From assembly GCA_016930415.1 (NCBI GenBank), contig JAFGGS010000005.1, forward strand, positions 1 to 64,000: 64,000 bases of DNA, read 5' to 3'. Every line of letters starts with the position of its first letter. The first letter of the stretch is position 1. Below are positions 3,021 to 58,861 of the stretch, one piece after another. The DNA comes from Candidatus Woesearchaeota archaeon (lineage in GTDB: Archaea > Nanobdellota > Nanobdellia > Woesearchaeales > SM23-78). The position numbers were made by a program, and so were the translations under genes. The notes beneath the pieces are model-generated. The model did no database searches and was not told the DNA's origin. It worked only from the letters and a program-made list of their open reading frames with translations.

Positions 3021-4235
3021 ATGGCAAAGGCAAAGGCAGCAGCGGAAGGCGTCAAGAAAGAGATACAGACCGCGCTACCATTGGATAAGCAGGATAAGAA
3101 AGCAGCCAAGGAAGCTAAGGAGCGTGCGCCTGCTCCCAGGAATGGCAACGGAAAGAGTGCGGGCGGCGCAAGAGAAGAGCTGGTAAACCTTGGAGACAGT
3201 CTTGTCAAGGACATTAAGAAAGGAGAGAATCCGAAGATAGAGCTCTCAGTCCGAGGACTCTCAAACGTGGTGTACGACAAGGAATCAAAGACCCTGGGCC
3301 TCGGAGACAAGACAGCGCAGAGATTCTTCTTCAACGTGGCTCACGCCAAGAAATTCCTGCAGACAGTAGAAGTCGCTGCGATCTGCAAGACGCTCCTAGA
3401 TGCAGGAAAGCACGCAAGCCTTAGGGACGTATTCTACATGGCCAAGAGGACAATTCCCAACAGCAAAACAAACGTCGTCGACGACCAGAAAGAGAGCGAC
3501 AAGGCGATCGAGGACTTAGAGCTGATAACCACGTTCTCAAGAGAGAACCTGAACGTGAACGCGAACAAGATGGGAAGCGTCGCAGGCAAGGTCGTGATAG
3601 AGGACTCGGGAGACACAATAGACTGGAGCCGCTTAGGAAGCGGCGGATGGAGCATCCCCTCGAACGTCGAGAACATCGCATTCAAGAAAGTGGACGCGAA
3701 ATACGTCATCTACATGGAGAAAGCAGCGGTGTGGGAGCGTCTCCACGAGGACAAGTTCTGGGCGAAGCAGAACTGCATAATCATGAGCTCGCAAGGACAG
3801 ACCACTAGAGGGATAAGAAGACTATTGCAAAGGCTCTCAAGCGAGCACAACCTCCCGATATTCGTCCTAGCAGACAACGACCCTTGGGGATGGTACATCT
3901 ACTCAGTCCTAAAGTTCGGAAGCATAAGTCTCGCCCACATGGCAGACTCGATGGCTATCCCAGACGTCAAGTTCGTAGGGATCACCTGCGACGACGTACT
4001 AACATACGACCTCAAGAGGCACTTCATCAAGCTGACAGACAAAGACATCTCCAGGCTCAAGCAGATGCAAAGCTACGAGTGGTTCGCAAAGAACAAGGCT
4101 TGGCAGCGACAGTTCAAGATGATGAAAGACTTCGGAGCAAAGGTAGAGATCCAAGCTCTGAGCAGCAAAGGAATATCGTTCATCAGCGAGAGATACCTGC
4201 CAGAGAAGATCAAGAAGCAGGACTTTTTGGACTGA
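3021..4235 (+). CDS. top6A: DNA topoisomerase VI subunit A
   Basis: Spo11-like cleavage subunit of topoisomerase VI, 404 aa. The catalytic tyrosine lies in RDVFYMAKR (Tyr139) within the winged-helix 5Y-CAP domain. The TOPRIM metal-binding DxD is in VLADNDPWGW (Asp285/Asp287). A lysine- and alanine-rich N-terminal extension of about 55 residues precedes the core. The start ATG is 2 nt past the top6B stop. It converges on carB, with only 26 AT-rich bases between the two stops. Length and motifs match the archaeal family. Confidence 0.97.
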   Translation: MAKAKAAAEGVKKEIQTALPLDKQDKKAAKEAKERAPAPRNGNGKSAGGAREELVNLGDSLVKDIKKGENPKIELSVRGLSNVVYDKESKTLGLGDKTAQRFFFNVAHAKKFLQTVEVAAICKTLLDAGKHASLRDVFYMAKRTIPNSKTNVVDDQKESDKAIEDLELITTFSRENLNVNANKMGSVAGKVVIEDSGDTIDWSRLGSGGWSIPSNVENIAFKKVDAKYVIYMEKAAVWERLHEDKFWAKQNCIIMSSQGQTTRGIRRLLQRLSSEHNLPIFVLADNDPWGWYIYSVLKFGSISLAHMADSMAIPDVKFVGITCDDVLTYDLKRHFIKLTDKDISRLKQMQSYEWFAKNKAWQRQFKMMKDFGAKVEIQALSSKGISFISERYLPEKIKKQDFLD

Positions 4236-4261
4236 TTAAAAAATATGAAAATATAATTCTC

Positions 4262-7200
4262 CTAGTACTCTTCCCACGCCTTTATCGAGATGTCCTTCTT
4301 ATCTGTATTGCACATGGCCTGAACAAACGCCTTCGCCACCCTCATGTTGGTGATCAAGGGTATGTTGTAGTCGACAGCGTTCCTCCTGATCGTGTAGTCG
4401 TTGTAGAGCTCAGATCTTGACAAGTTCTTTGGGATGTTGATGACAAGGTCTATCTTGCCGCTCTTCAGGCACTCGAGTGTATTCGGGCTCCTCTTGTCGT
4501 CAGGCCAATAAAGTGCGGTGCATTTCACCCCGCTCTCTTCCAGGAACCTCGCAGTCCCTGGAGTCGCGTAGAGCAAGAGCCCCTTACCCGCGAGAAGCCT
4601 TGCCTCCTCCACCAGCTCTGCCTTGGAGTCTACAGGACCAGTGGATAAGAGCACTCCCTTCCTAGGATAATCATACCCAACTGAGAGCATGGACTTGAGG
4701 ATGGCCTCGTCAAAGTCATCACCTATGCAGCCGACCTCGCCAGTGCTAGCCATCTCAACTCCCAGGATCGGGTCTGCGCCCTGCAGCCTGCTGAAGCTGA
4801 ACTGGGGAGCCTTTACGCCCACGTAGTCTAGCTCGAATGATGACTTCTCAGGCTTCTTCACATCCTCGCCGAGCATCACCCTCGCCGCCAAGTCTATGAG
4901 GTTCAGCTTGAGAACCTTTGACACGAACGGGAAGCTGCGCGAAGCCCGCAGGTTGCACTCGATGACCTTGATGTCGTTGTCTTTTGCAAGGTATTGGATG
5001 TTGAAAGGACCAGAGATCCCCAGCTTCTTCGCGATTCTTCTCGATATCCTCTTGATCCTCCTGATAGTCTCGACGTAGATCTTCTGAGGAGGGAATACTA
5101 TTGTCGCGTCGCCAGAGTGCACTCCAGCGAACTCGACGTGCTCGGATATCGCATAGCACAACATTTCACCATCCTTGGCGACTGCGTCGATCTCAATCTC
5201 CTTCGCCCCCTCGATGAACTTCGAGACAACGACTGGATGACTCTTTGACAAGTCACTTGCCAGCTTCAGGAACTGCTCTAGCTCTTCAGGGTTGCTCACG
5301 ACGTTCATCGCGCTTCCAGACAAGACGTACGAAGGCCTCACGAGGACTGGGAAGCCGACCTTGTCAGCGAAAGCCTTCACCTCAGAGAAGCTCCTGAGCT
5401 CCTTCCACTCGGGCTGGTCGACGCCAAGCTCGTCAAGCAATCTTGAGAACTTGTGGCGGTCCTCAGCAGAGTCGATAGACTCTGGAGACGTGCCAAGGAT
5501 CCTCGCGCCCTCCTTGTGAAGTCTCATCGCGAGGTTGTTAGGGATCTGGCCGCCAGTGCTAACAACGACACCCAAAGGATCCTCCAGGTCAATAACATCC
5601 ATCACCCTCTCGAAGGTGAGCTCGTCAAAGTAGAGCCTGTCGCACATGTCATAATCAGTGCTCACAGTCTCAGGGTTGAAGTTGATCATGATAGCCTTCC
5701 TGCCAGTCTTCCTCACAGACGCGGCAGTGTTCACGCAGCACCAATCGAACTCAACGCTGCTGCCGATCCTGTAAGCCCCGCTTCCAAGCACGACCACTGA
5801 GTCCTCGTCACCACCTTGCCTGCCAAAACCCACGTCGTGACAGGATCCGCTGTAAGTCAAGTACAAGTAGTTGGTCATCGCAGGATACTCTGCTGCGAGA
5901 GTGTCGATCTGCTTGACAAAAGGGATGATTCCCTTCTTCTTCCTATGATCACGGACCTTGAGGAGCGACTCCTCCATCTCCGCAGACCCAGGTTTCAGGA
6001 CGAGCCTCGCCACTTGGAAGTCAGAAAAGCCCCTCTTCTTGGCCTCGAGGAGCAGCTCATCAGGCAATGAGCCAAGAGAACCATGGCTTGAGAGCTCGTT
6101 TGAAATGCTCGTTATGTTCTCGAGCTTGTGCAAGAACCACTTGTCGATCCGAGTCAACTCGTGGATGCGATCCACAGAGTAGCCTTCCTCAAAAGCCTTT
6201 GCGATCGCGAATATCCTGCGGTCACTCGGGTTCTTGAGCTCGTGCTCCAGGTCAGGATACAAGATGTCCCTGTTGGCTGTGAATCCATGCATGCCATGGC
6301 CGATCATGCGAAGGCCCTTCTGGATCACCTCCTCGAAGTTCCTGCCGATAGCCATGACCTCGCCCACGCTCTTCATGCCAGTGCCTATCCTGTTAGACAC
6401 TTGGGAGAACTTGGACAAGTCCCACCTTGGGATCTTGCACACAATGTAATCGAGCGCAGGCTCAAAGCAGGAAGTCGTGACCTTGGTGATCGAGTTCCTA
6501 AGCTCGGGGAGCGAGTATCCAAGGCCTAGCTTGGCGGCGACGAACGCGAGCGGATAGCCAGTGGCCTTTGAAGCGAGGGCGCTAGACCTTGAGAGCCTCG
6601 CGTTCACCTCGATCACGCGATAATCCTCAGAGAAGGGATCGAGCGCGAACTGGATGTTACACTCACCAACCATGCCCAGGTGCCTTATCACTTTGATCGA
6701 TATCTCGCGCAGCTTGTGATACTCTGAGTTGGTGAGCGTCTGGCTCGGAGCCACGACGATGCTCTCGCCAGTGTGTATTCCTAAGGGGTCAAAGTTCTCC
6801 ATGTTGCACACGATTATGCAGTTGTCATAAGAATCCCTGACGACCTCGTATTCGACTTCCTTCCAACCCCTAAGGCTCTCCTCGACGAGTATCTGGGATG
6901 AGTGCGTGAACGCTTTGGCAGCGCGATCGACTATCTCTTCCTCTGACGAGCAGAATCCGCTCCCCTGGCCGCCGAGACTGTAAGCCGCCCTGATGATTAT
7001 AGGGTAGCCTATCTTCCTTGCAGCCTTCTTTGAGTCCTCAACGCAATTCACAGCAATGCTCCTTGGAGTCTTGACGCCTATCTCATCAAGCCTCTTGACG
7101 AACAATTCGCGGTCCTCAGTGTCTATTATAGTCTTGACAGGCGTGCCGAGCACCCTGATGCCGTGCCTCTCCAAGACCTTTGACTCGAATAACGCGACTC

Positions 7201-36529: not shown

Positions 36530-37111
36530 TTATCTCTTCGCGCTTGGTACAGTCACTCCAAGATCAAAGACATGATACTTCCCGCTTCTTGCACTGAGCT
36601 CGTGCACCTGATAAGGGATGGACTCATCCAAAAGCATACTAAGATCAGTTCTGGTCTGGCGATATATTGCTAGTTGACTCTCACGAGTCTCCTTCTCAAA
36701 GTCGTCTCGGGAAATTATAGAATAGCTCTTGGCGCCCCTCACGCTGACAACCTCGCCTGCTTCCAAAGGCAGGTATACGCCTGCACTGAACAAGAACCTC
36801 ATCTTCCAAGGCAAGAATCTCATGACCCGCTGCTCAACAGTGAACAAGGTCTGCCGCGCCACACCATCACTACCGATCTTCGGAGAATCCTCATAATCGA
36901 GTCTCGACAAGATCCCCTGGCAGAAGACTTCCTTGCAAAGAGAGAATATGGCGAAGCCTTCAAGTTTCCCATCAACTCTTACAACCCCTGCAGTCTGTCC
37001 AAAAGAAAACCCGTCTCTTAGTATGAACGCCAGCTCTTCATTGAGCATGTGCACATAATGATCTGCCAGCGTCATCTCCCAGTCTGAGAACTGGTCTGTG
37101 TTGCTAGCCAT
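36530..37111 (-). CDS. Hypothetical protein
   Basis: 193-aa soluble protein of mixed alpha/beta look. It has ADHYVHMLNEELAFILRDGFSFGQTAGVVRVDGKLEGFAIFSL at the start and a C-terminus YHVFDLGVTVPSAKR. The opening loosely recalls an acyl-CoA N-acyltransferase fold but no diagnostic motif is seen. Leaderless from a TATA-like gtttataaac about 25 nt before the ATG. Convergent with the GNAT gene, 2 nt apart. Confidence 0.65.
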   Translation of the reverse strand: MASNTDQFSDWEMTLADHYVHMLNEELAFILRDGFSFGQTAGVVRVDGKLEGFAIFSLCKEVFCQGILSRLDYEDSPKIGSDGVARQTLFTVEQRVMRFLPWKMRFLFSAGVYLPLEAGEVVSVRGAKSYSIISRDDFEKETRESQLAIYRQTRTDLSMLLDESIPYQVHELSARSGKYHVFDLGVTVPSAKR

Positions 37112-37193
37112 CAGATGAGGAAAGCCAAAATTGTTTATAAACTTTTTCGCGTAAACTTTATAAACCGCCTGGATTTCTTCCGTCTATACCCCT

Positions 37194-37298
37194 GCCTCCG
37201 TAGCTTAGCGGTGGAGCTCGCGGCTGTTACTCGCGCTCTGCAATTTAAGGAGTGGCGCAGAGACCGCGCGGTCACCAGTTCGAATCTGGTCGGAGGCG
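37194..37298 (+). tRNA. tRNA-Asn(GTT) with intron at 37/38
   Basis: Acceptor GCCTCCG/CGGAGGC, T-arm ACCAG-TTCGAAT-CTGGT, discriminator G at 37298, CCA not encoded. Anticodon GTT at 37226-37228 in a CGCGG/CCGCG stem. The 33-nt intron is 37230-37262. The junction fits a bulge-helix-bulge: exon CTGT pairs with intron GCAG, with bulges TA^C and AG^A. The intron has GCGCTC near its 5' end and GGCGCAGAG at its 3' end. TATA-like ctttataaac lies about 30 nt upstream. Confidence 0.93.
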
Positions 37299-37313
37299 TC
37301 ATATTATTTCGCT

Positions 37314-37394
37314 TGGTGACCGGTCACCAGTTCGCGCTCAGAAGCGAAGCTTCTGGCGCAGAGGACAACGTCCTCTTGAATCTGGTCGGAGGCG
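37314..37394 (+). repeat. Displaced second copy of the tRNA-Asn 3' half with T-loop hairpin insert
   Basis: CGGTCACCAGTTCG (37321-37334) and GAATCTGGTCGGAGGCG (37378-37394) repeat the 3' half of tRNA-Asn, 96 bp downstream of the original at the acceptor end. The T-loop is split by a 44-nt insert (37334-37377) made of two stems: GCGC-T-CAGAAGC-GAA-GCTTCTG-GCGC and AGAGGAC-AAC-GTCCTCT. A 16-nt palindrome TGGTGACCGGTCACCA (37314-37329) sits at the left edge. No 5' tRNA half accompanies it. Confidence 0.8.
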
Positions 37395-37426
37395 TTATAA
37401 TACTTTAGAAATTTTTTCACAAATTT

Positions 37427-37604
37427 GAGCCTGTAGCTTAGCCTGGCTGGAGCACACGACTGATAGCGGAGCACCAAAGGTGCGAGCCGCCAGGAATTCA
37501 GGGAATTCCTGAGCGCCCGTAGCGCATTTTTTAGCGCGAGGGAAGAATATGTGCGAGAAACGTCAGAGATCGTGCGGTCGGGAGTTCGAATCTCCCCGGG
37601 CTCA
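37427..37604 (+). tRNA. tRNA-Ile(GAT) with a 103-nt intron at 37/38
   Basis: Acceptor GAGCCTG/CGGGCTC, T-arm GGGAG-TTCGAAT-CTCCC, discriminator A at 37604, no CCA. Anticodon GAT at 37462-37464 in stem CACGA/TCGTG. Intron 37466-37568. Exon CTGA pairs with intron TCAG; bulges TA^G and AG^A. The intron is built of hairpins: GCGG..GCACC-AAA-GGTGC..CCGC, CAGGAATTC-AGG-GAATTCCTG and a GCGC stem around a T-run. Confidence 0.92.
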
Positions 37605-37664
37605 TCAACGATGAGGCTGGGGGCCTAAGAAACGTGAAACGTTTCTTTCTGTCCCCGGGCTCAT
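37593..37664 (+). repeat. Direct repeat of the tRNA-Ile 3' end with hairpin spacer
   Basis: TCCCCGGGCTCAT occurs at 37593-37605 (tRNA 3' end) and again at 37652-37664, 59 bp later, followed by a T-run. The spacer has CTCAT-CAACG-ATGAG, which starts in the tRNA end, and the perfect stem AGAAACGT-GAA-ACGTTTCT (37628-37646). Same architecture as the tRNA-Gly and aIF5A loci. Confidence 0.85.
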
Positions 37665-37791
37665 TTTTTTTTCTATCTTTCTCTTGAATCAAACAAGGGG
37701 AGTTCACTCGTTTGGCGCTTTGGCCAGACCAAAATGCGATTTTCAGGTGTAACTTTTTTAAAGCCAAGCCCACTGGCTAATCCTCGGGTGA

Positions 37792-39363
37792 GTGATCGCT
37801 GACATGAAGAAGACTCTCAAGATCGAGCAGAGGTACGCGAATTCAGTCCTTAACATAATACTAGACACGCTAGCTCTTAAGAAACAGGCGCTTGTCTTCG
37901 TGAACAGCAAGAACTCTGCAGAGGCCGAGGCTGAGAGGCTCGCCGCCAAGGTCCGTCCAGAAGGAGAGGGGAAGGCGGCGCTTGAAGAGTTGTCTGAGCA
38001 AGTCCTTGGCGCGCTTGAGAAGCCGACCAAACAGTGCAAGCGCCTGGCGCTATGCGTAAAGAGCGGGATAGCCTTCCACCACGCAGGGCTTCACTCGAAG
38101 CAGCGCGAGATCGTAGAGGATAATTTCAGGGAGGGGACGCTCAAGGTGATATGCGCGACGCCAACCCTTGCCTACGGCCTAAACCTCCCGGCTTTCCGCG
38201 TGATCGTCAGGGATTTGAAACGATTCTCAGGCCAGCGAGGCATGGCATGGATACCTGTACTTGAATACCTGCAGTTCTGCGGACGAGCAGGAAGGCCAGA
38301 CTATGGTGAGGAGTATGGAGAAGCCATCTGCATCTCAGAGACAGACTCTGAGAAGGAGAACATAATGGACCACTACGTGAACGGCGAGCCAGAGGACATA
38401 CTCTCAAAGCTCGCAGTCGAGCCGATCCTGCGAACATACGTCCTGAGCCTGATCGCGATCGAGTACTGCAACTCAGAAGAGACCTTGATGGGTTTCTTCG
38501 AGAAGACCTTCTACGCCCACCAGTTCCAGAACACTGAGCGGCTCGAAGAGATAATCGAGAAGATCCTGCGCTACCTCGAGGATTGTGGCTTCATCCAATG
38601 GAGCGAGGACGGCAAACGGGTCGAGGCCACGCTCACAGGCCACCGCGTAAGCCAATTATACCTGGATCCCTACACTGCTAACTACCTGATTAACTGCATG
38701 AAGAGGGCGGCTGAGAAGATGGTGAACGACTTCTCGCTCCTGCAGATGATATCATACACACTGGAGCTTAGGCCGCTGTTGTCAGTGCGGGTGTCAGAGT
38801 ACGAGCTGGTCGAAGCCGCCATGGCAGAGAAGTCATCGCACATATTAAGCATCGAGCTCTCGATGTACGACACAGACTACGAGGAGTACGTCAAGAGCAT
38901 AAAGACAGCCCTCTTCTTCTACGACTGGATAAACGAGGCGGACGAGGAGCAGCTGCTCGAGGGCTACAACATCAGGCCAGGAGAAGTACGGGCGAAGCTA
39001 GAGCTAGCAGACTGGCTGTTGTATGCTTCTGAGGAGCTTGCGAAGCTCTCGAAGATGCACGGCCTGCTAAAAGAGATCGCGAAGGTTCGCATCAGGCTGC
39101 GGCATGGAGCAAAAGAAGAGCTCTTGCCACTCCTTCGCCTGCAAGGCATAGGCCGTGTCAGGGCGAGAAAGCTATACCAGAACAAGATACGAGACGTCGA
39201 GGACATAAAGAAGGCAGACTTATCAGCGCTATCAGCCATGCTCGGACGGGCGATCGCCCTCTCGCTAAAGAAACAAGTAGGGCAAGACCTCTCAGAAGAA
39301 GCGATAGTCGTGCCTAAAGGCAAGAGGAAAGGACAGCTAAGCCTGGAGAAGTACAGGAAATAA
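37792..39363 (+). CDS. Hel308/Hjm helicase, C-terminal part only (RecA2 to HhH)
   Basis: 523 aa (519 from the ATG at 37804). It starts at the end of the RecA1 domain and has RecA2 motifs IV-VI (ALVFVNSKNSAEAEAERLA, FHHAGLHSKQREIVEDNFREG, CATPTLAYGLNLPA, LQFCGRAGRPDY), the winged-helix and ratchet domains, and an HhH end (LLRLQGIGRVRARKLY). The RecA1 domain with Walker A and DExx is missing, so it cannot hydrolyse ATP alone. It has its own TATA-like box (37751-37762) and a GGTGA near the GTG/ATG starts, so it is expressed. Either the N-terminal half is encoded elsewhere (split gene) or this is a truncated relic beside the tRNA loci. Confidence 0.88.
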   Translation: MIADMKKTLKIEQRYANSVLNIILDTLALKKQALVFVNSKNSAEAEAERLAAKVRPEGEGKAALEELSEQVLGALEKPTKQCKRLALCVKSGIAFHHAGLHSKQREIVEDNFREGTLKVICATPTLAYGLNLPAFRVIVRDLKRFSGQRGMAWIPVLEYLQFCGRAGRPDYGEEYGEAICISETDSEKENIMDHYVNGEPEDILSKLAVEPILRTYVLSLIAIEYCNSEETLMGFFEKTFYAHQFQNTERLEEIIEKILRYLEDCGFIQWSEDGKRVEATLTGHRVSQLYLDPYTANYLINCMKRAAEKMVNDFSLLQMISYTLELRPLLSVRVSEYELVEAAMAEKSSHILSIELSMYDTDYEEYVKSIKTALFFYDWINEADEEQLLEGYNIRPGEVRAKLELADWLLYASEELAKLSKMHGLLKEIAKVRIRLRHGAKEELLPLLRLQGIGRVRARKLYQNKIRDVEDIKKADLSALSAMLGRAIALSLKKQVGQDLSEEAIVVPKGKRKGQLSLEKYRK

Positions 39364-57685: not shown

Positions 57686-57796
57686 GCGCCGATGGTTTAG
57701 TGGTTAGAATGCGGCCTTGCCACAGGTTTTTGCCGGGAAAACAGGCAGATGCCCTGCAAAGAGGCTGCGACCCGAGTTCGAATCTCGGTCGGCGCA
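57686..57796 (+). tRNA. tRNA-Gly(GCC) with 39-nt intron at 37/38
   Basis: Acceptor GCGCCGA/TCGGCGC, T-arm CCGAG-TTCGAAT-CTCGG, discriminator A at 57796, no CCA. Anticodon GCC 57719-57721, stem CGGCC/GGCTG. Intron 57723-57761: exon TTGC pairs with intron GCAA, bulges CA^C and AG^A, inner stem AGG/CCT. A TATA-like tatatatag lies about 18-26 nt upstream. Confidence 0.94.
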
Positions 57797-57932
57797 TGCG
57801 AAGCAGAGACGACTGGGCTAGAAACCCAATGGTTTCTACTCTCGGTCGGCGCATCTTGATTTATCAAGATAACGGCGAGCGACCCAAAAACGCTTTTTTT
57901 TTTTTTAAGCGTTTTTGCCTGTCGGTCGGCGC
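57783..57932 (+). repeat. Three copies of the tRNA-Gly 3' end separated by hairpins
   Basis: TCTCGGTCGGCGCAT at 57783-57797 (tRNA end) recurs at 57840-57854 (15 of 15, 57 bp apart), and TCGGTCGGCGC again at 57922-57932 (80 bp further). Spacer 1 has the perfect stem TAGAAACC-CAAT-GGTTTCTA. Spacer 2 has ATCTTGAT-TT-ATCAAGAT and AAAAACGCTT/AAGCGTTTTT around a T-run. A 15-T run follows the last copy. Confidence 0.88.
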
Positions 57933-58733: not shown

Positions 58734-58817
58734 GTGGGCGTGCCGGAGTGGTCAAACGGGATAGGCTTAGGACCTATTGGTTTAGTACCTACGCAGGTTC
58801 GAACCCTGCCGCCCACA
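58734..58817 (+). tRNA. tRNA-Leu(TAG)
   Basis: 84 nt, type II with long variable arm. Acceptor GTGGGCG/CGCCCAC, anticodon stem ATAGG/CCTAT with loop CTTAGGA (anticodon TAG 58768-58770), T-arm GCAGG-TTCGAAC-CCTGC, discriminator A, no CCA. No intron. Its 3' end pairs with downstream sequence. Confidence 0.95.
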
Positions 58818-58861
58818 GACGAACTCAGTGAGACTGTGGGCTCAGAGGCGGTTGCCTCTGA
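58811..58861 (+). repeat. Hairpins at the tRNA-Leu 3' end
   Basis: GCCCACAG, starting in the tRNA acceptor stem, pairs with CTGTGGGC at 58834-58841. A second stem TCAGAGGC-GGTT-GCCTCTGA follows (58842-58861). The next bases CAGTCCACC may be a worn copy of the tRNA end, but this is weak. Confidence 0.6.

Follow-up and report, generated by a model that had tools for sequence, protein, structure and literature searches.

How did the 3' end of a tRNA gene come to be repeated, exactly and around a hairpin, a few tens of bases behind that gene? The question is raised by the tRNA-Ile(GAT) gene of the window, by which we mean the whole stretch of Woesearchaeota DNA analysed here (64,000 nt), and the repeat turns out not to be a peculiarity of one locus.

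The tRNA-Ile locus

The 13-mer TCCCCGGGCTCAT occurs exactly twice in the window, at 37593-37605 and 37652-37664, and simple arithmetic gives an expectation of ~9e-7 per position for two identical 13-mers lying within 60 nt of each other. The features of the locus are the following.

37427..37604, + strand: tRNA-Ile(GAT) gene, from a reading of the sequence and a partial RF00005 match
37427-37465, 37466-37568 and 37569-37604, + strand: exon 1, anticodon-loop intron (103 nt) and exon 2 of that gene
37593..37605, + strand: A, the original tRNA-Ile 3' end (T-stem 3' strand, acceptor 3' strand, discriminator) plus one base
37601..37615, + strand: first turn, hairpin CTCATC-AAC-GATGAG, beginning inside the tRNA-Ile end, from the sequence
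37610..37622, + strand: A', the inverted arm GATGAGGCTGGGG, able to pair with the tRNA end and with the copy
37627..37647, + strand: inner hairpin AAGAAACGT-GAA-ACGTTTCTT, the core of the unit, from the fold and the R1 match
37652..37664, + strand: direct copy of A (exact match to 37593-37605), followed by a T run

The sequence-only reading had reported an exact downstream repeat of the tRNA end, a spacer consisting almost entirely of stem-loop, a stem that starts within the tRNA and the lack of an open reading frame, and each of these observations holds. The 13-mer is found at both sites and nowhere else in the window, CTCATC (37601-37606) pairs with GATGAG (37610-37615), and no reading frame accounts for the 46 bp that separate the two 13-mers. 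The spacer forms a nested hairpin in which the outer arms are 37610-37622 and the direct copy; the fold of 37606-37674 reaches -33.9 kcal/mol (z -5.9), and none of 200 shuffled sequences did as well. The inverted arm can pair with the tRNA-Ile end (-19.7 kcal/mol) or with the direct copy (-23.6 kcal/mol). The first copy directly supplies tRNA-Ile with an intact T arm and acceptor, without splicing.

Standard annotation captures little of this arrangement. ARAGORN missed tRNA-Ile(GAT), RF00005 matches only its 3' part (37513-37604, 32.7 bits), and an Rfam scan of 36900-38000 returned only tRNA-Asn and a sub-threshold group II match elsewhere, so that the unit corresponds to no curated family. 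Our own covariance model, R1, matches the unit at 37614-37659 with 33.3 bits, a score to be read with the locus being part of the R1 training set.

A recurrent unit behind tRNA genes

All four tRNA genes of the window (Asn, Ile, Gly, Leu) are followed by a downstream unit, that of tRNA-Leu being degenerate.

37194..37298, + strand: tRNA-Asn(GTT) with a 34-nt intron, from an Rfam match
37299..37394, + strand: long-type unit behind tRNA-Asn, copies at 37323-37334 and 37379-37394
57686..57796, + strand: tRNA-Gly(GCC) gene, from RF00005
57797..57932, + strand: two units behind tRNA-Gly, copies at 57841-57853 and 57921-57932, hairpins at 57819-57838 and 57885-57917
58734..58817, + strand: tRNA-Leu(TAG) gene, from ARAGORN and RF00005
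58818..58870, + strand: degenerate unit behind tRNA-Leu, hairpin at 58842-58861, weak R1 match (11.2 bits, E 0.71)

The unit behind tRNA-Asn repeats the 3' portion of that gene, with the T loop of the copy interrupted by an insert of two hairpins (37335-37378), and for tRNA-Leu(TAG) the match of the gene's own tail in the downstream flank is not above chance. Across the 36 tRNA genes of the window's genome, comparison of the last 25 nt of each gene with its own 150-nt downstream flank yields a summed score of 289, against 199±7 when the tails of other tRNAs serve as the null and a maximum of 238 in 10000 permutations. The upstream control carries no signal (203 vs 198±7), and the downstream effect extends to 40 congener tRNAs (263 vs 221±8). 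By eye, about 20 of 37 tRNA genes in the window's genome have a downstream unit, a number that becomes 12 of 36 under a strict score of >= 9. Three of the units are of the long type (Asn, Pro-TGG and Val-CAC), and the partial copy downstream of tRNA-Val(CAC) still carries an anticodon-loop and a T-loop insert.

Alignment of 31 units yields a common anatomy, in which the gene end A is followed by a short turn (in many cases the mini-hairpin CGAAG/CGTAG), the inverted arm A', 1 nt, a hairpin of the form CARAA…TTYTG, 2-3 nt (often TT) and the direct copy of A. Units are ~45-60 bp long (~47 bp at tRNA-Ile). Conservation among them is limited to the hairpin foot (CARAA/TTYTG) and a 1x(2-3)-nt internal loop; the rest of the inner stem is variable, and both outer arms derive from the site, following the neighbouring tRNA. 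At E <= 1e-4, R1 has 12 matches in the window's genome, every one of them same-strand and no more than ~150 nt downstream of a tRNA; this association is partly circular, since R1 was trained largely on tRNA trailers and on most of those 12 matches. Some matches beyond the training set also lie behind tRNA ends, among them ones in congeners (L200, L201, L210, L214) and in G011, a genome of a different family (L234, L240). In the other families of the order, R1 matches are rare.

Occupied, empty and tandem sites

The spacer at tRNA-Ile is not shared by all relatives: five congeners lack it, and the unit is found at this gene in the window's genome only. In the same-genus genomes G001 and G003 the gene has no unit, and in G002, G005 and G006 it has a genuine T-loop intron and no tail copy. 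This fits well with the part of the sequence-only reading that had proposed a small insertion whose direct repeat derives from its target. Other sites follow other patterns. The tRNA-Asp unit is present in the window's genome, G002, G005 and G006 and absent from G003, tRNA-Leu of G005 and G006 is followed by tandem arrays of 2-4 units, and two units lie behind tRNA-Gly of G011, a genome in which two tRNA genes bear the unit, such that the number of units per site ranges from 0 to 4. Units thus recur at orthologous tRNAs in several congeners, and many other orthologous tRNAs have none. The recurrence in several genomes, largely metagenome-assembled, speaks against an assembly artefact.

In two more distant genomes, G056 (L053) and G041 (L057), tail copies occur behind tRNA genes without the conserved hairpin foot.

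Units are not confined to tRNA 3' ends. Upstream of tRNA-Leu and tRNA-Ser in congeners lie units in mirror orientation in which the tRNA 5' end is copied, and equal anatomy is seen at gene starts (L204/L208, where the gene start reads like NAC, L206, L235 and L238) and at one TATA box (L193). In the window's genome, copies of the gene's own 5' end upstream of tRNAs yield no overall signal (171 vs 167±5), with only tRNA-Thr and one tRNA-Ser standing out. In G006 (L180, G006:C2, ~4000-4300), a tRNA gene is immediately preceded by tandem repeats that contain CAGGAACGAAAGTTCCTG hairpins and are apparently an array of similar units on the 5' side. Near TATA-like sequence in the window's genome, G005 and G002 (L194, L199 and L203) there is one common unit, GTCCAGTG..CAGTGG-hairpin-GTCCAGTG; it may be a gene for a small RNA or a unit on the promoter side.

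Origin of the unit

The mirror-oriented 5' units and those at gene starts and the TATA box favour a process at the DNA level, since such an origin covers all unit sites and an origin at the RNA level covers the transcribed ones only. On balance, we consider it probable that the tRNA-Ile repeat stems from a duplicative hairpin insertion which recurs in this lineage and copies the end of the neighbouring gene, and which in transcribed trailers later comes under RNA-pairing constraint. The adjoining end would be copied twice around two hairpin turns, either through fold-back synthesis or template switching or through an insertion that duplicates 10-16 nt of the target, and units already in place would multiply in tandem. 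Behind a transcribed tRNA, the unit would be co-transcribed and fold as a separate minihelix resembling an acceptor/T arm, without disturbing the fold of the tRNA; the inverted arm of the unit would later drift under the constraint of RNA pairing, with G.U pairs being kept. The strong preference for tRNA 3' ends counts against duplicative insertion.

Several candidate motors were considered. Y1 transposase (PF01797) is absent from the window's genome (G000), G005 and G006, with one each in G002 and G003, and Cas1 was found in none of six genomes, the window's genome being ~91% complete; both were discarded as motors, not being found in the window's genome. A reverse transcriptase was discarded as well, because it looks by inspection like that of a diversity-generating retroelement and was not found in unit-rich G005. 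The only reverse transcriptase of the window's genome (G000:C12:34198-34812, L244) lies downstream of a gene ending in a repeat-like segment, AAWLGCDIDDFSINADDDLGGNNAARG, which is also present near the reverse transcriptase, as in a diversity-generating retroelement. A search for the exact insert junction in viral contigs found none.

Constraint on pairing and alternative explanations

The outer arms of 45 trailer units comprise, under symmetric scoring, 409 Watson-Crick, 44 G.U, 12 A.C and 50 other pairs. The excess of G.U over A.C (44 vs 12, p 2e-5) is suggestive of pairing being maintained at the level of RNA and hints at an RNA role. When polarised against the tRNA of the window's genome, changes fall mostly in the inverted arm, and those that keep a wobble pair number 18 (C>T 10, A>G 8), against 5 of the mirror kinds (G>A 4, T>C 1). 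The idea that strand-biased C>T mutation alone produced the excess of G.U is weakened by the A>G arm changes, which are as common (8 vs 10). Covariation among 52 distinct units amounts to 0.308, against 0.152±0.012 when shuffled and ~0.1 when slid, with pair counts that are partly circular inasmuch as the alignment was fitted to the R1 structure. Fold-back synthesis or template switching can also yield compensatory pairs without selection (PMC8794818). The direct copy, on the other hand, is nearer to the tRNA sequence than the inverted arm is, a pattern more suggestive of selection or gene conversion than of passive debris.

These observations also speak for a rival reading of the unit as a functional cis-acting RNA module, that is, a minihelix resembling an acceptor/T arm that aids 3' maturation (by RNase Z), termination or tRNA folding, with the tail copy kept by selection. 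Besides the G.U bias, the covariation and a copy nearly identical to the tRNA end, such a module would be in keeping with the recurrence at orthologous tRNAs, with the T run after the tRNA-Ile unit and with the folding of pre-tRNA-Ile and trailer as independent, additive domains (-75.9 and -32.4, jointly -108.3 kcal/mol). We nonetheless regard it as rather unlikely. A pattern scan detected no terminator-like site at the tRNA-Ile locus, the many empty orthologous tRNAs and a unit number varying from 0 to 4 are at odds with a required module, and, as a sole origin, it is weakened by the units that lie in opposite orientation upstream of tRNAs and beside a promoter.

A relic of a T-loop intron, in which duplication restored an uninterrupted 3' end and pushed the old intron and old 3' exon downstream, appears improbable. 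The T-loop introns in tRNA-Ile of G002, G005 and G006 lend it some appeal, as does the hairpin resembling that of the unit (CTCAGAAA) inside the G005 intron. The inserts retained in the partial copy of tRNA-Val(CAC) point the same way, and so does the count of tRNAs above the RF00005 cut-off (34 in the window's genome vs 13-20 in congeners). Yet T-loop intron and downstream unit occur together at tRNA-Ala, -Pro and -Asp of G005, showing that one does not replace the other, and units are found also at tRNA 5' ends and at non-tRNA genes. Displacement of a T-loop intron is therefore rejected as a general account, and may apply to the three long-type units.

The 3' ends of tRNA genes are classic attachment sites, and the sequence-only reading had offered an integration scar as the alternative to a small insert. 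Casposase duplications of 14-15 bp at the 3' end of tRNA-Pro (PMC6614799) offer a precedent, but descent from an element that integrated site-specifically (through a tyrosine recombinase, as a casposon or in a similar way) and then lost all but its repeat is very improbable. The unit measures ~47 bp, has no integrase remnant and no element genes between the repeats, contains an inverted copy of its target and shows one compact anatomy at ~20 tRNAs as well as at 5' and non-tRNA sites, and Cas1 was not found in the six genomes searched.

Relation to known elements

Downstream of E. coli tyrT, the tRNA 3' end is likewise repeated 3' of the gene; those repeats (rtT) are 178 bp long, occur at one locus and lack the inverted arm of the unit. 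Template-switch hairpins (Monttinen and Loytynoja 2022, PMC8794818) place a local inverted copy in one event and produce perfect stems and apparent compensatory changes without selection. The unit resembles them in that A' is a reverse-complement copy of the adjacent A, but it shares sequence beyond the copied DNA (the CARAA/TTYTG foot and the internal loop), contains a further direct copy and turns up repeatedly at one class of site. Generic template switching leaves the conserved hairpin foot unexplained. Like MITE/REP-type palindromes and the ends of IS200/IS605 elements, units are small intergenic hairpins without coding capacity. Unlike MITEs, they lack fixed terminal inverted repeats, their arms matching each site and only the foot of the inner hairpin being common, and IS200/IS605 or REP/RAYT systems are set apart by the missing Y1 transposase in the window's genome, G005 and G006. 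Where a casposon inserts at a tRNA 3' end, ~14 nt of that end are directly duplicated (PMC6614799), a trait that the unit shares in its target duplication of ~14 bp, but here there is no Cas1, there are no terminal inverted repeats and the unit measures only ~47 bp.

Non-canonical (T-loop) archaeal tRNA introns with similar hairpins are found in the same lineage, where tRNA fragments adjoin tRNA genes; the tRNA-Ile of the window differs in being uninterrupted at the T loop, with the unit outside the tRNA. Disruption of a tRNA by a mobile element has been described in Caldiarchaeum (PMC3293823), and group I introns are known from rRNA genes of Woesearchaeota (PMC6125680). Several congener tRNAs contain structured inserts of 80-160 nt, apparently of one family (AGATTTTT..AAAATCTGGTAAAA..AATTAAG..GAATT..GAAAG), in the T loop (L107, L114, L117, L123, L137, L138), the D loop (L052, L059) or the anticodon loop (L149, L152). 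These larger inserts have no match in Rfam, group I intron included, and are possibly an undescribed family of tRNA introns at several non-canonical positions.

A search of the open-licence literature retrieved no description of the unit, which may be described elsewhere; it is apparently a recurrent and so far undescribed unit of this uncultured Woesearchaeota lineage. More tentatively, it might represent a new class of miniature element that spreads beside the ends of RNA genes. The target would be copied by fold-back around a hairpin turn both dedicated and sequence-specific, which would leave an inverted and a direct echo of the site, and the units would later serve as co-transcribed minihelices. 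The units show that tRNA gene ends in Woesearchaeota are remodelled across the genome in a lineage-specific manner that lies outside the tRNA and RNA-family models used, and they bear on the fragmentation and interruption of archaeal tRNA genes. With ~20 tRNAs, several congeners and both filled and empty sites, they also provide natural replicates for studying the origin of hairpin insertions with target-derived arms and for asking whether such insertions become processed RNAs.

The Asn/Ile tRNA pair adjoins a Hel308 gene whose closest named relatives are in Woesearchaeota records. The Hel308-like ORF behind tRNA-Ile (37792-39363) apparently starts midway through the helicase, whose first half does not lie directly upstream, and is possibly a split gene; the ORFs behind tRNA-Ile in G001, G003 and G014 start in the same manner.
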